From: Labilithrix sp.
GTDB lineage: Bacteria; Myxococcota_A; Polyangia; Polyangiales; Polyangiaceae
Direction of reading: 5' to 3'
Assembly (NCBI GenBank): GCA_019637175.1
Contig: JAHBWD010000004.1
Location: 124,001 to 188,000 of the forward strand
Length of the DNA: 64,000 nt
Part shown: in pieces, positions 32,228 to 38,050 of the stretch
Layout: every line of letters begins with the position of its first letter
Numbering within the stretch: position 1 is the first letter of the stretch
Translations under genes and position numbers: made by a program
Notes under the pieces: model-generated
What the model was told of the DNA's origin: nothing
What the model saw: the letters and a program-made list of their open reading frames with translations, nothing else
The model's database searches: none

Positions 32228-33463
32228 TCAGTATCCCGGAGGCAGGACGACGTTCTGGAGCGGCGTCGTCGTCGACGGGCAATTCGTCGGATCGGTGCTG
32301 CCGTCGCGCTCGACGCACTTCTTCACCGGACCGTTCAGGTAGTCCATGTAGAGGTCGTGGTAGCCCGGCATGCCCGGGGCGAACGCGCGATCGGGGCGGG
32401 CCGCGCCCCACGAGTTCTTCACGCGGAAGAACTGCACCTCGGTGCTCGGCTGGAGCGCCGCGTCGAGGAGCGCCTTGTCGGCGGGCACGCTCGGATCGAG
32501 CGTCACGCCGGCCTCGAGCACGCGACCGTTCGAAAGCTTCGCCTGATAATCCTCGAGCACCGTCATGTGCCCGCCCTGACGGCCCGGTCCAAACTCGCCG
32601 AGCGTCGTCATGTTGAACGAGCCACGCAGCGGCCCCTCGCGGTTCTCCATCGCGTTGAAGTCGACGAACCACGTGATGATGACCGGCTGCGCGTCGTGGA
32701 GCGCCTTCTGGACGCGGAGCTGAAACCCGCGCCGATCCGACGAGTAGTAGACCTGACGCCAGTCGTTCATCGCCTGCGTGAGGCGCTTCTGCAGGGCGGG
32801 CTGCCCCGGCCCCGCGGAGTAAGAGACGACGAAGTCGCCGGCGCGCTGGATCGGCGTGCCCGCGGGATCGGCGGGAGACGCCGCCGACGAGAACGTGCGC
32901 GTCACGCCTTCGCCGAACACGCGGTCGAGCATCCCGCTGACCTCACCCGAGAGGCCCCACGCGCGATCGAGCTCGCGCCGGAGGAGCGCGCGATCGCGAC
33001 GCGCGGCGGGCTCCTTGAGCGCGCCGTTCTTCAGCGACTCGTTGATCGCGTTCAGCGCCGAGCTCTGGCGGAACGACATCTCGTTCTCCGTGTCGGCCGG
33101 GATGAACGCGCCCTCGTCGACGAGGCCGTAGCGCTTCACGATCCCGTTCGCGGTGCTGTAGTTGCCGCCCGTCGAGATCTGGCTCGAGAAGCCGGCGACG
33201 ATCTGATCGAACCAGTGCCAGTACGTCCAGTACGACTGCGAGACGTCGAAGTCTTCGCCCGTCGCCGTCTTGTGCATCGACTCGACCCAGCTCGCGTGAG
33301 CGTAGAGCCAGCAGTTGCCGATCGCCTGCCGCTCGACGTCCGTCTGTGGCACGTTGACGATCTCGTCGTCGGTCACCGACGACGGGGGCTCGCTGTTGGG
33401 CGCCGCGCAGCCGAGGGCGAGGCTGGTTCCGAGGGCGAGCATGCTGACGAGACGGAGCTTCAT
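32228..33463 (-). CDS. Papain-fold (C1-type) cysteine peptidase lipoprotein
   Basis: 411 residues from ATG 33463; the frame extends further without a signal peptide. Lipobox LALGC places Cys19 as lipid anchor. The catalytic set of family C1 is present: IGNCWLYAHASWVES (Cys51, in the GxCW context), His in GGHMTVLEDYQ and Asn in RVKNSWGAARP. There is almost no propeptide before Cys51, unusual for papain-like enzymes, and the spacing is longer than papain, closer to bleomycin hydrolase-like members. The enzyme should face the periplasm or outside. It is first in a four-gene run with the GSDH-cytochrome. Confidence 0.88.
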   Translation of the reverse strand: MKLRLVSMLALGTSLALGCAAPNSEPPSSVTDDEIVNVPQTDVERQAIGNCWLYAHASWVESMHKTATGEDFDVSQSYWTYWHWFDQIVAGFSSQISTGGNYSTANGIVKRYGLVDEGAFIPADTENEMSFRQSSALNAINESLKNGALKEPAARRDRALLRRELDRAWGLSGEVSGMLDRVFGEGVTRTFSSAASPADPAGTPIQRAGDFVVSYSAGPGQPALQKRLTQAMNDWRQVYYSSDRRGFQLRVQKALHDAQPVIITWFVDFNAMENREGPLRGSFNMTTLGEFGPGRQGGHMTVLEDYQAKLSNGRVLEAGVTLDPSVPADKALLDAALQPSTEVQFFRVKNSWGAARPDRAFAPGMPGYHDLYMDYLNGPVKKCVERDGSTDPTNCPSTTTPLQNVVLPPGY

Positions 33464-33535
33464 AGGCGGGATCCTGGAAGAGGTTATTCCAGCCTCGATC
33501 ATCGCCGAAATCGGTGCGATCGAGCTAGCGCCTAC

Positions 33536-33618: not shown

Positions 33619-35127
33619 TCAGCCGAACACGATCCCCTGCGCGAGCGGCAGATCGCGCGAGTAGTTCACCGTGTTGGTGCTCCGGCGCATGTACGCGCGC
33701 CAGGCGTCGGAGCCCGACTCGCGGCCCCCGCCGGTCTCCTTCTCGCCGCCGAAGGCGCCTCCGATCTCCGCGCCGCTCGGCCCGATGTTGACGTTCGCGA
33801 TCCCGCAGTCGGACCCCTCGGACGAGACGAAGCGCTCCGCCTCCCGCAGATCGCTCGTGAAGATGCACGACGAGAGCCCCTGAGGGACGTCGTTGTGCAT
33901 CGCGATCGCCTCGTCCATCTCGCGGTACGTCATCACGTAGAGGATCGGCGCGAAGGTCTCCTCGCGGACGATCTCGCGCTGCGCGTCCATCCGCGCGATC
34001 GCGGGGCGAACGTAGAACCCGCCGCTGCGCCCGGCGACGTCGACGCGCTCGCCGCCGGTCACCCGGCCGCCTTCCTTCTTCGCGCGCGCGAGCGCCGCCT
34101 GCATCGCCTCGAACGAAGCGCCGTCGACGAGCGGGCCCACGAGCGTCGCCGCCTCGCGCGGATCGCCGACCGCGACCTGCGTGTACGCGCGCTCGAGGCG
34201 CGAGGTGATCTCGGCGGCGACGCTCTCGTGCGCGATCAGACGGCGGAGCGTCGTGCAGCGCTGGCCGCACGTGCCCACCGCGCTGAACAGGATCGCGCGC
34301 GTCGCGAGATCGAGATCGGCCGTGGGCGCGACGATCATCGCGTTGTTGCCGCCGAGCTCGAGCAGCGAGCGCCCGAAGCGCGCGGCGACGCGGGGCGCGA
34401 CCGCGCGGCCCATGCGCGTCGAGCCGGTCGCGCTCACCAGCGGAACGCGGCGATCGTCGGTGAGGCGCTCGCCGACCTTCGCGTCGCCGATGACGATCTC
34501 CGAGAGCCCCTTGGGCGCGGCGCTTCCCGTCGCGGCGAAGCGCGCGCGCGCGCGCTCGAAGAGCGACTGGCAGGCGAGCGCCGTGAGCGGCGTCTTCTCC
34601 GAGGGCTTCCACACCACGGCGTCGCCGCACGCGATCGCGAGCGCGAAGTTCCACGCCCAGACGGCGACGGGGAAGTTGAACGCGCTGATCACGCCGACGA
34701 CGCCGAGCGGGTGCCACGCCTCGCTCATGCGATGGCCCGGCCGCTCCGAGGCGATGCTGAGCCCGTAGAGCTGGCGCGAGAGCCCGCAGGCGAAGTCGCA
34801 GATGTCGATCATCTCCTGCACCTCGCCGCGCGCCTCGGCGATGATCTTGCCAGCCTCGATCGTGACGAGATCGGCGAGCTCGTTCTTCGCCGCGCGCAGC
34901 TCTTCGCCGAAGAGACGAACGAGCTCGCCTCGTCGCGGGGCGGGCACCGCGCGCCACGCGAGGAAGGCCTCGTGCGCGCGACCGATCGCGGCGTCGACGT
35001 CGCTTGGCGTGCTCGAGGCGATCTTCGCCGTGACGCTCCCGTCGATCGGCGATCGAGCGACGAGATCGCCGCCTTCGAAGGTCTTCGGATCGAGGCCGAC
35101 CGCCCCCAGCTCGCGCGTGATGTCCAT
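33619..35127 (-). CDS. Aldehyde dehydrogenase, ALDH7 (aminoadipate-semialdehyde dehydrogenase) type
   Basis: 502 residues. The ALDH core is complete: NFPVAVWAWNFALAIACGD, WKPSEKTPLTA, the general base Glu257 in LLELGGNN, catalytic Cys291 in GQRCTTLRRL and the late EETFAPILYV. The RCTTLRRL and PLGVVGVISAFNFP contexts resemble ALDH7 (antiquitin/AmaB), which oxidises alpha-aminoadipate semialdehyde in lysine breakdown. Substrate specificity is inference. It is cytoplasmic. The gene is divergent from the PAD lipoprotein gene across 143 bases. Confidence 0.92.
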   Translation of the reverse strand: MDITRELGAVGLDPKTFEGGDLVARSPIDGSVTAKIASSTPSDVDAAIGRAHEAFLAWRAVPAPRRGELVRLFGEELRAAKNELADLVTIEAGKIIAEARGEVQEMIDICDFACGLSRQLYGLSIASERPGHRMSEAWHPLGVVGVISAFNFPVAVWAWNFALAIACGDAVVWKPSEKTPLTALACQSLFERARARFAATGSAAPKGLSEIVIGDAKVGERLTDDRRVPLVSATGSTRMGRAVAPRVAARFGRSLLELGGNNAMIVAPTADLDLATRAILFSAVGTCGQRCTTLRRLIAHESVAAEITSRLERAYTQVAVGDPREAATLVGPLVDGASFEAMQAALARAKKEGGRVTGGERVDVAGRSGGFYVRPAIARMDAQREIVREETFAPILYVMTYREMDEAIAMHNDVPQGLSSCIFTSDLREAERFVSSEGSDCGIANVNIGPSGAEIGGAFGGEKETGGGRESGSDAWRAYMRRSTNTVNYSRDLPLAQGIVFG

Positions 35128-35270: not shown

Positions 35271-37112
35271 ATGAAACGCATGCCCCGCCTCGCGCTCGCC
35301 GCGGGCTTCCTCGTCGCCGCGTGCGGAGGAGCCGACGCCGGCGAGATCTCCGATCCGACGCCCGCGGGGCCGGGCGGGAGCGGCAGCGCGCCGCCTTCGT
35401 CGACGAGCACGCCCCCCGGCGGGGAGCTTCCCGGCTCGCCCGTCGACCTCCGCGCCGACACCAACCGCGACGGCGTCGTGAGCTTCGAAGACCCGACCGA
35501 CGACGACGGCGAAGACACGTGGGACGCGAAGCACGGCGCGATCTTCCTCGCGAACCTCGACGACGACGAGGTCAAGTGCCCCACCAACGTCGACGACGTC
35601 GACTTTCCGAAGTGCAACGACGCCGCGGACGACGTCGTCAACGGGGAAGACGACGCGCGCGATCTCGCGCGCCTCGCGACGCGTCCGTGGCCAGAGGCGC
35701 CCGCCGACACGACGGGATCGATCACCACGAGCGCCGCCGATCACGTTCGCCTCTTCAAGGTGCGCGGCGAATCGTTCGAGGTGCTCGGCGAAGACGGCGC
35801 GCTCAGCGGCGACGAGATCCGCGCCGGCGTGCACCTCGCCATCGAGGGGCGCGACATCGTGCGCGACTTGGCGAAGTGGGACGGCTTCGTCGACGTCGTC
35901 TTCACCGTCAGGAGCGGCGGCGCTTCGGAGAGCGACACGGTGAAGATGCGCGTCGCGCCGCTCATCACCGCGCATCACCTCTCGCCCGCAGAGACGACGT
36001 ACGTGTCGCTCGTCAACACGGCGGGCGGCGTCGCCACGCGGACCGATCTCGCGACGGCCGCGACCGCCGCCGGCGTGCCGGCGCCGCAGACGATCGCCAC
36101 GCAGGATCAGTGGACCCAGGACTTCTTCGAGACCGGCTACATGTCGATGCCGGGGCCGAACGGCACGCAGCACGTCATGCGCGTGAACATCCGGTCGGCG
36201 AACATGTCGTCACCGCAGTCGACGCGCAACCCGCTGCGCCGCGCCGGCCGCGTCGTCTTCACGCACCTCCGCGGCAAAGACTCCGCCGGCATTCAGGAGT
36301 ACGACCCGAGCCGCTTCGGCAGGTTCGACACGCTCAACTCGTTCGGCAACTTCGAAACGATCCCGCCGTACACGCGCGGCGGCGAGAGCTTCCCCCTCGG
36401 GCGCATCCTCCGCGGCAGCACGCCTTCGTACTTCCCCGACAAAGCCTTCGGCCGGATGATGGAGGCCCAGAAGGTCCAGGAGCCGCTCTACGTCGACACG
36501 TCGTGGCTCATCGTCGGCCACGTCGACGAGACGATCTCCTTCGTGAAGTCGCCCTCGCCGCGCGGCTGGGCGCTGCTCGTGAACGATCCCGCGGCGGCGC
36601 GCGAGATGCTCCAGGCGCAGGCCGACGCGGGATACGGCGACACGCCGATGTTCGTGGGCAAGCTCTGGAGCACGACGCGAAGCGCGCAGGTCACGATCAA
36701 CCAGGTGCTCGCGAACACCGAGGTCATGCAGGCGAGCGCCGAGGCCGCGGCCGAGATCGACGGCCAGCTCACCGTGATCAAGGCCGCGACGGGGATCTCC
36801 GACGACGAGATCATCCGCGTGCCCTTCCTCTGGGAGGCGCGCAGCTCCGGCCTCGTGGCCTATCAGCCGGGTTTGGTCAACGGCCTCTACCTCGCGCCCG
36901 ATCACTTCGTCGCGCCGAACCCGCACGGGCCGCAGATCGAGGGCGTCGACATCTTCAAGGCGGCGATGCAAGAGAGGCTCGCGCCGACCGGCGTCACGGT
37001 CCATTTCGCGGAAGACTGGGACCTCTATCACCGGAACCTCGGCGAGGTTCACTGCGGAACCAACGCGACGCGGGCGGTGCCTGCGGCCAAGTGGTGGGAG
37101 AGCGGACGATGA
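35271..37112 (+). CDS. Lipoprotein with protein-arginine deiminase (PAD) domain
   Basis: 613 residues from ATG 35271. The signal peptide ends with lipobox LVAAC (Cys18), so the enzyme is predicted to be exported and lipidated. After a Pro/Ser linker, residues 60-110 match the PAD middle-domain calcium loop (ADTNRDGVVSFEDPTDDDGE). The rest is the PAD catalytic domain: LNSFGNFETIPP and FPLGRILRG align with the vertebrate enzymes, and the four catalytic residues are Asp284 (DQWTQDFFE), His417 and Asp419 (WLIVGHVDETISFV) and Cys595 (GEVHCGTNATR). PADs convert peptidyl-arginine to citrulline with Ca2+. The bacterial enzyme of Porphyromonas is unrelated in sequence. Overlaps an exported HEAT-repeat gene by four bases. 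Confidence 0.93.
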   Translation: MKRMPRLALAAGFLVAACGGADAGEISDPTPAGPGGSGSAPPSSTSTPPGGELPGSPVDLRADTNRDGVVSFEDPTDDDGEDTWDAKHGAIFLANLDDDEVKCPTNVDDVDFPKCNDAADDVVNGEDDARDLARLATRPWPEAPADTTGSITTSAADHVRLFKVRGESFEVLGEDGALSGDEIRAGVHLAIEGRDIVRDLAKWDGFVDVVFTVRSGGASESDTVKMRVAPLITAHHLSPAETTYVSLVNTAGGVATRTDLATAATAAGVPAPQTIATQDQWTQDFFETGYMSMPGPNGTQHVMRVNIRSANMSSPQSTRNPLRRAGRVVFTHLRGKDSAGIQEYDPSRFGRFDTLNSFGNFETIPPYTRGGESFPLGRILRGSTPSYFPDKAFGRMMEAQKVQEPLYVDTSWLIVGHVDETISFVKSPSPRGWALLVNDPAAAREMLQAQADAGYGDTPMFVGKLWSTTRSAQVTINQVLANTEVMQASAEAAAEIDGQLTVIKAATGISDDEIIRVPFLWEARSSGLVAYQPGLVNGLYLAPDHFVAPNPHGPQIEGVDIFKAAMQERLAPTGVTVHFAEDWDLYHRNLGEVHCGTNATRAVPAAKWWESGR

Positions 37113-38050
37113 AGACGACGATGAAGATCGGCCTCGCGACCGCGCTCGCGCTCGCGCTCGCCGCGACCGGCGCGCCGGCGTCGGCGAGCGGCCTCGCGGT
37201 CGACGCCGGCGAGCTGCCCGCGAAGACCCGCGCGTCGCTGCGCATCGACATCGATCGCGCCCGCGGAGAAGCGCCCGACCTCTTCCGCCAGGTCGACGAG
37301 ATCGTCGCCAAGGCCAACGAGATCGACGCGGCGTCGCGCCGGCCGGGCGCGCCGCTCACGATGCACTTCAAGGTGCTCGGCCCGCGCGCGCTCATGCCGA
37401 TGCTCGAGCTGCTCGCGTGGGGCGGTCAGGTGAAGGCCGGTCTCACGCCGACCGCGCACGCCGCGCTCCGCGTCGGCCTCATCGAGGCCGTCGGGATCAT
37501 CCGCGACGGGCGCGCGGTGCCGGTGCTCGCGCGCATCGTCGATCGCGAGCGCGACGTCGACACGACGCGCGCGGCGGCCGACGCGCTCGGGCGGATCGGC
37601 ACGCACGAGTCCTTCGGCGCCCTGACCGCCGCGCTCGGGAACGCAGACGGCGCCGGCGGCGAGCGGCTGCACGCGATCTTGATCGGCATCGGCGCATCGC
37701 ATCGCCTCGACGCCGCGCGCCTCCTCGCGCGCAGGGCCGAGGGCGCCGACGAGGCGACCGCCCGCGCGGTCGCCAAGGCGCTCGGGACCGCCGGCAACGC
37801 GTGGGCGTGGAAGACGCTCGCGTCGCGCGGCGAAGAGTCCGCGGTGCGCGAGGTCGCGGCGCGGGCGCTCGTGAAGATCTACGTCGAGCACGCGGGCGAG
37901 GCGCGCACCGCGGCGTCGAACGCGCTGCTCGTCGTCGGTGACGCCCACACGGCGACGTTCATCGCCGACGCCAAGCGCACCGCTTCTGCGGACGTCGCCG
38001 CGGCGCTCGACGCGCTCGCCGCGCGCATGGCGAAGAACCCGGTTCGCTGA
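37109..38050 (+). CDS. Exported HEAT-repeat protein coupled to the PAD gene
   Basis: 313 residues from ATG 37109, overlapping the PAD stop (ATGA). A type I signal peptide (MKTTMKIGLATALALALA) is followed by an ASASG cleavage region; no lipobox. The mature protein is alpha-helical with HEAT-like units (IRDGRAVPVLARIVDRERD, TRAAADALGRIGTHESFGAL, VREVAARALVKIYVEH). HEAT repeats bind other proteins. Translational coupling to the PAD gene suggests a partner, inhibitor or substrate-presenting factor for it; that is inference. Confidence 0.88.
   Translation: MKTTMKIGLATALALALAATGAPASASGLAVDAGELPAKTRASLRIDIDRARGEAPDLFRQVDEIVAKANEIDAASRRPGAPLTMHFKVLGPRALMPMLELLAWGGQVKAGLTPTAHAALRVGLIEAVGIIRDGRAVPVLARIVDRERDVDTTRAAADALGRIGTHESFGALTAALGNADGAGGERLHAILIGIGASHRLDAARLLARRAEGADEATARAVAKALGTAGNAWAWKTLASRGEESAVREVAARALVKIYVEHAGEARTAASNALLVVGDAHTATFIADAKRTASADVAAALDALAARMAKNPVR

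Follow-up and report, generated by a model that had tools for sequence, protein, structure and literature searches.

A predicted lipoprotein peptidylarginine deiminase paired with an exported HEAT-repeat protein in Labilithrix and other Myxococcota

Introduction

What does a PADI-type protein-arginine deiminase (PAD) do in a member of the Myxococcota, and does it act alone? The question is raised by a gene in a 64,000 bp stretch of contig JAHBWD010000004.1 (positions 124,001–188,000) of Labilithrix sp., a soil myxobacterium; the stretch is here called the window. The original prediction, made by a model from the sequence, described a PADI-type deiminase with all four catalytic residues, a middle-domain calcium loop and a lipoprotein signal, outside the branch of the superfamily that holds PPAD of Porphyromonas. 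PPAD is an exported bacterial protein deiminase. Bacterial PADIs have, to our knowledge, no assigned function. The literature searched contained no paper on a protein-arginine deiminase in Myxococcota, and HEAT repeats were not mentioned in any of the papers listed on arginine deiminases, lipoproteins and citrullination. No description of a PAD paired with an exported HEAT-repeat protein was found in the literature searched.

Results

Features are on the forward strand unless stated otherwise. The PAD gene lies at 35271–37112, from an ATG at 35271 to a TGA ending at 37112, and encodes 613 aa. Pfam PAD (PF03068) matched residues 220–610 (35928–37100), the catalytic domain, with E 3.3e-96 and a score of 323 bits (cut-off 25). 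When the protein was used to query the PDB with phmmer, human PAD3 (170 bits) and PAD4 were returned, with E values of approximately 1e-48. The predicted family is thus correct. The profile search proposed with the prediction gave a strong match to PAD, but PAD_M was matched below threshold (E 0.0075, residues 58–106). The only further family at E ≤1 was EF-hand_5 (E 0.13); with no match to PAD_porph at that level, a PPAD-type identity was rejected, as had been foreseen. The calcium loop is also present. It is the EF-hand-like RADTNRDGVV (residues 61–70; 35451–35480), located where the middle domain begins, supported by the weak EF-hand_5 and PAD_M matches and conserved in alignment A1. Cys103 and Cys115, in a middle-domain loop, are kept in most class-1 (window-type Myxococcota) relatives and in Streptomyces, with Cys115 invariant in A5, and are possibly a disulfide. 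Elsewhere in the window, downstream of an aldehyde dehydrogenase gene (33619–35127), a gene on the reverse strand (32228–33502) encodes a lipoprotein-like protein with a weak match to Peptidase_C1_2.

An AlphaFold2 model of the PAD, built from a 53-row alignment (pLDDT 90.3, pTM 0.87), bears out, for the overall fold, the proposed superposition on human PAD4: it matched the calcium-bound enzyme with Z 42.0 and an rmsd of 1.8 Å over 508 residues at 29% identity (Foldseek E 1e-49). Calcium-bound inhibitor complexes outranked calcium-free structures as matches, which shows likeness to the ordered form only. The match spans PAD4 residues 112–663, comprising the middle and catalytic domains, and the mature protein starts approximately 40 residues ahead of its middle domain. 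No PAD_N domain was found in the window PAD. Since the top alignments of the model with PAD4 start at residue 112, we conclude that the protein consists of the middle and catalytic domains without PAD_N, and is of the two-domain PADI type.

A lipobox signal, MKRMPRLALAAGFLVAAC, forms the N-terminus (35271–35324); in it, MKRMPRLALAAGFLVAA precedes Cys18 and the +2 residue is Gly. Cys18 is invariant in A1, and a recognisable lipobox signal was found by a stricter scan in 55 of 67 class-1 Myxococcota relatives, in keeping with the predicted lipidation. The same scan found none in 12 Streptomyces PADs. From its sequence, the window PAD is apparently anchored outside the cytoplasm, in the periplasm or at the cell surface. 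Two further PADs (L030 and L060) have Somatomedin_B domains ahead of the PAD domain, likewise an extracellular trait.

For the active site, the PAD4 sequence was aligned with 119 bacterial rows (102 class-1 Myxococcota, 12 Streptomyces and five from a divergent class 2 described below). PAD4 D350, H471, D473 and C645 align exactly with Asp284 (36120–36122), His417 and Asp419 in GHVDE (36519–36527) and Cys595 in EVHCGTN (37053–37055), the four residues named in the original prediction, and all four are invariant in the 119 bacterial rows. The equivalent of PAD4 W347 is also invariant. PAD4 R374 aligns with Ala325, across an adjoining insertion, and substrate recognition may therefore differ from that of PAD4.

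The calcium sites are kept unequally. Ca1 ligands are conserved as Q283, E287, F358 and E362, with L410 replaced by F361; we take F407 and L410 to be Ca1 ligands of PAD4. Ca2 ligands are mostly replaced (E351 by F285, D369 by R308 and N373 by R324), and only S370, presumably also a Ca2 ligand in PAD4, is retained, as S309. All six Ca3 ligands, PAD4 N153, D155, D157, D165, D176 and D179, are kept as N95, D97, D99, D117, D128 and D131. The other PAD4 ligands were taken from PMC3559651 and PMC13023937. In fungal and actinobacterial PADIs, site 2 is described as characteristically lost (Cummings et al. 2021, PMC8826395). As most Ca2 ligands are gone, calcium control of the window PAD is probably unlike that of the vertebrate enzymes. 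The calcium-switch residue PAD4 D388 (D389 in PAD2) aligns with D337, next to a gap, and the Streptomyces rows have D or N there; Gly has been reported at this position in the two-domain PADI branch (PMC8826395).

PADs were found in 94 of the 379 Myxococcota genomes sampled (25%), and in 65 of the 237 cleaner genomes. PADIs have been reported from 0.76% of bacteria overall and from 11% of cyanobacteria, the highest share among the bacterial groups listed (PMC8826395), percentages that come from a different method and database than our 25%. The statement in the original prediction that PADI homologues occur chiefly in cyanobacteria does not stand, as the species counts are 136 actinobacterial and 69 proteobacterial versus 56 cyanobacterial (PMC8826395). 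In a tree of Myxococcota, Streptomyces and human rows, the window PAD groups with class-1 Myxococcota and Streptomyces, opposite human PAD3, PAD4 and class 2 (support 100/97). The tree hints that Streptomyces arose inside the HEAT-linked Myxococcota radiation; the hint is not significant (p-AU 0.18) and we do not claim it. A search of plasmids returned matches only in Streptomyces and Embleya. The window enzyme is an additional member of the already known two-domain PADI family, and the new part of the finding is the exported HEAT partner.

The gene for this partner lies at 37109–38050 and encodes a 313 aa HEAT-repeat protein with a Sec signal at approximately residues 1–26. Its ATG overlaps the PAD stop codon TGA (37110–37112) in the ATGA at 37109–37112. 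This overlapping gene is the most informative feature of the locus. The window partner falls just short of the HEAT_2 cut-off (E 5.5e-6, 27.0 versus 27.7 bits), while its relatives exceed it, and its counterparts in relatives form one clear family. HEAT_2 has 83 matches across the 9.1 Mb host genome. The partner was modelled as an alpha-solenoid (pLDDT 94) that best matches artificial alphaRep HEAT proteins (Z 15.6). As a fold match, this indicates a scaffold only, and HEAT solenoids bind many things. In the model, Arg77 (37337–37339) belongs to the loop of residues 76–83; it is among the best conserved residues of class-1 partners (50/52 rows, 96%).

Among the 379 genomes, 67 genes matched the HEAT family with at least 79 bits. 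A PAD on the same strand adjoins 65 of them, with the HEAT gene downstream in 63 and upstream in two. The remaining two matches are partial, and the PAD matches of their genomes (G030:C272 and G312:C837) begin no more than 71 bases from a contig start. No genome among the 379 has a HEAT-family gene without a PAD. Where loci were checked, the partner start overlaps the PAD stop in 57 of 58, and 56 of 58 partners have a Sec-like N-terminus. At four places (L084, L089, L116 and L121) the gene order is swapped yet the genes are adjacent. Chance or artefact was rejected as the source of the PAD call and of the pairing, since the domain match and the gene pairing are both far beyond chance.

Genomes carry one to four co-duplicated copies of the pair. 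Distances between PADs correlate with those between partners (Mantel r 0.77; 2000 permutations gave at most 0.22), and where a genome has more than one pair, the real within-genome assignment ranks fourth of 384. We conclude that PAD and partner tend to be duplicated together. Two PADs are present in the host genome (9.1 Mb in 151 contigs), for which Labilithrix and other Myxococcota are the closest named relatives. The second PAD (G000:C109:12847–14028; L002, L041) shares approximately 53% identity with the window protein; its N-terminus is lipobox-like, and a HEAT gene of its own follows it.

With both classes counted, a HEAT neighbour was found at approximately 102 of 117 PAD places; many of the remaining places are fragmentary or at the end of a contig. 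HEAT neighbours are absent at the L049/L062 and L120 PADs. The former (G007:C124; L049, L062, L176) is in a genome whose two other PADs have a HEAT neighbour, and is itself approximately 65% identical to the window protein. At the 12 Streptomyces loci, no HEAT neighbour was found within approximately 5 kb of the PAD. The window PAD is acidic and its partner basic (pI 4.7 versus 9.6), a complementarity that holds for most class-1 pairs. It was rejected as a general feature, because basicity is not the rule among class-2 partners (pI 4.6–7.2). For six Streptomyces PADs (among L128–L140) the computed pI is neutral to basic (7.4–9.8), whereas Myxococcota class-1 PADs are acidic (4.2–5.6).

Class 2 comprises very divergent, lipoprotein-like Myxococcota PADs (L033, L035–L038 and L141–L173). 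In nearly all of them, the gene directly downstream encodes a different HEAT_2 protein. The first five (L033, L035–L038) score 111–157 bits against the window protein, below human PAD3. Their downstream genes match HEAT_2 with E values of 5e-12 to 3e-24, and the N-termini are mostly export-like. When a partner model built from the neighbours of these five PADs was applied to the others, a class-2 HEAT partner was found at 32 of 36 further PAD places, giving 37 places with the first five. One (L163, G120:C110) has a tandem PAD pair followed by a single HEAT gene. Only one column is conserved in all 37 class-2 partner rows (100%), and it is an Arg, mostly in R-x-G, for example TRAG; in a profile alignment, this loop Arg falls close to Arg77 of class 1. 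The tree joins class 2 to the animal PADs as a sister group, but long branches meet there and we do not claim this relationship.

Discussion

We propose, with a probability of roughly 0.6, that the PAD and HEAT genes form a two-gene module for citrullination outside the cytoplasm, in which the HEAT protein is an adaptor, a first substrate or a reversible plug (inhibitor). It builds on computational results for the family and the fold, for the residues of the active site and the calcium sites and for the signals for export, and on the near-universal pairing and the co-duplication of the two genes. The first gene would supply a lipid-anchored, very probably calcium-dependent PAD that uses the PAD Cys/His/Asp/Asp chemistry outside the cytoplasm. 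The second, translationally coupled to it, would supply an exported HEAT-repeat solenoid acting on or with the PAD, most likely by binding it and presenting the conserved loop Arg77 to the active-site cleft. Enzymatic activity, a physical complex, the role of Arg77 and the final substrates of the module are what we infer. That an enzyme modifying arginine has a dedicated neighbour with a conserved loop Arg suggests a substrate or a plug, though the Arg could be structural.

A more specific version, which we put forward tentatively, is a self-controlled surface system. Here the loop Arg of the partner would enter the active site of the PAD, where it would serve as a plug or as the first substrate, and its citrullination would switch the pair on or off. 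As both PAD classes, which are farther from each other than the window PAD is from human PAD3, have exported HEAT partners, the pairing would be old.

It is also conceivable, if rather doubtful, that the partner is no more than the chief substrate: a structural protein of the cell surface in which the adjoining PAD citrullinates the conserved loop Arg. The strict pairing, the placing of Arg77 in a loop of the model, and the fact that few residues are better conserved than Arg77 or the loop Arg of class 2 all fit this, but conservation alone is equally compatible with a substrate, a plug and a structural Arg.

The module also has to be weighed against a toxin and immunity pair like SitA/SitI of Myxococcus, which is delivered by outer membrane exchange. 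SitA proteins are outer-membrane lipoproteins with an immunity gene downstream (PMC5562445), and in the window, too, a lipobox enzyme is followed directly by a second gene, in a family with one to four co-duplicated copies per genome. However, the toxin domain at the C-terminus varies between SitA proteins, which are encoded on or close to mobile elements (PMC5562445), whereas all copies here share the same PAD domain, conserved phylum-wide. SitA C-termini are nucleases and SitA2-CTD is toxic in the cytoplasm (PMC5562445), whereas the HEAT partners carry export signals. We consider this explanation improbable.

That the PAD fold is kept but the enzyme is inactive, or acts on free arginine or small guanidino compounds instead of protein arginine, is quite improbable. 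The replacement of R374 by Ala325 and of most Ca2 ligands would allow it, but the catalytic quartet and the W347 equivalent are invariant, Cummings et al. (PMC8826395) state that PADI homologues share their catalytic and substrate-binding residues, and active fungal PADIs of the two-domain type are cited in the same study. A stand-alone PAD acting on prey or environmental proteins, with the HEAT protein an unrelated envelope protein sharing the operon, would account for the Streptomyces PADs and the few Myxococcota PADs (L062, L120) that lack a HEAT neighbour, but it is very improbable given the 65 of 67 HEAT-family genes that adjoin a PAD, the lack of any genome with HEAT and without PAD, and the separate HEAT partner of the second PAD class.

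In the window PAD, the catalytic domain, the four catalytic residues, the Ca1 and Ca3 ligands and the middle-domain fold are shared with vertebrate PADI1–4, as represented by human PAD4; the lack of PAD_N, the replacement of most Ca2 ligands, the lipoprotein signal and the HEAT partner gene are not. The two-domain PADIs of actinobacteria, fungi and proteobacteria have the same layout and Ca2 ligand loss, the window PAD groups with those of Streptomyces, and His235-His236 in its linking strand resembles the triple-His motif reported for this type. Unlike in the window, neither a lipobox nor a HEAT partner was found at the 12 Streptomyces loci. An assignment to the three-domain PADIs (animal, SPM/NX cyanobacterial, Clade Ai) was rejected, because PAD_N and most Ca2 ligands are missing. 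The cyanobacterial PADIs, proposed as the source of the animal enzymes (PMC8826395), share family and chemistry with the window PAD but have PAD_N and the Clade Ai calcium sites, a comparison drawn from that study. PPAD is likewise exported, but belongs to a different branch.

The animal PADs are a subject of research on rheumatoid arthritis, NET formation and skin biology. In the genomes sampled here, PADs are common in the phylum that includes the myxobacteria, predicted to be extracytoplasmic and almost always found with one kind of partner. A two-gene operon with one conserved Arg provides a concrete handle on what bacterial PADIs do. Should the partner prove to be an adaptor or inhibitor, it would represent a PAD-binding protein that arose by natural evolution.
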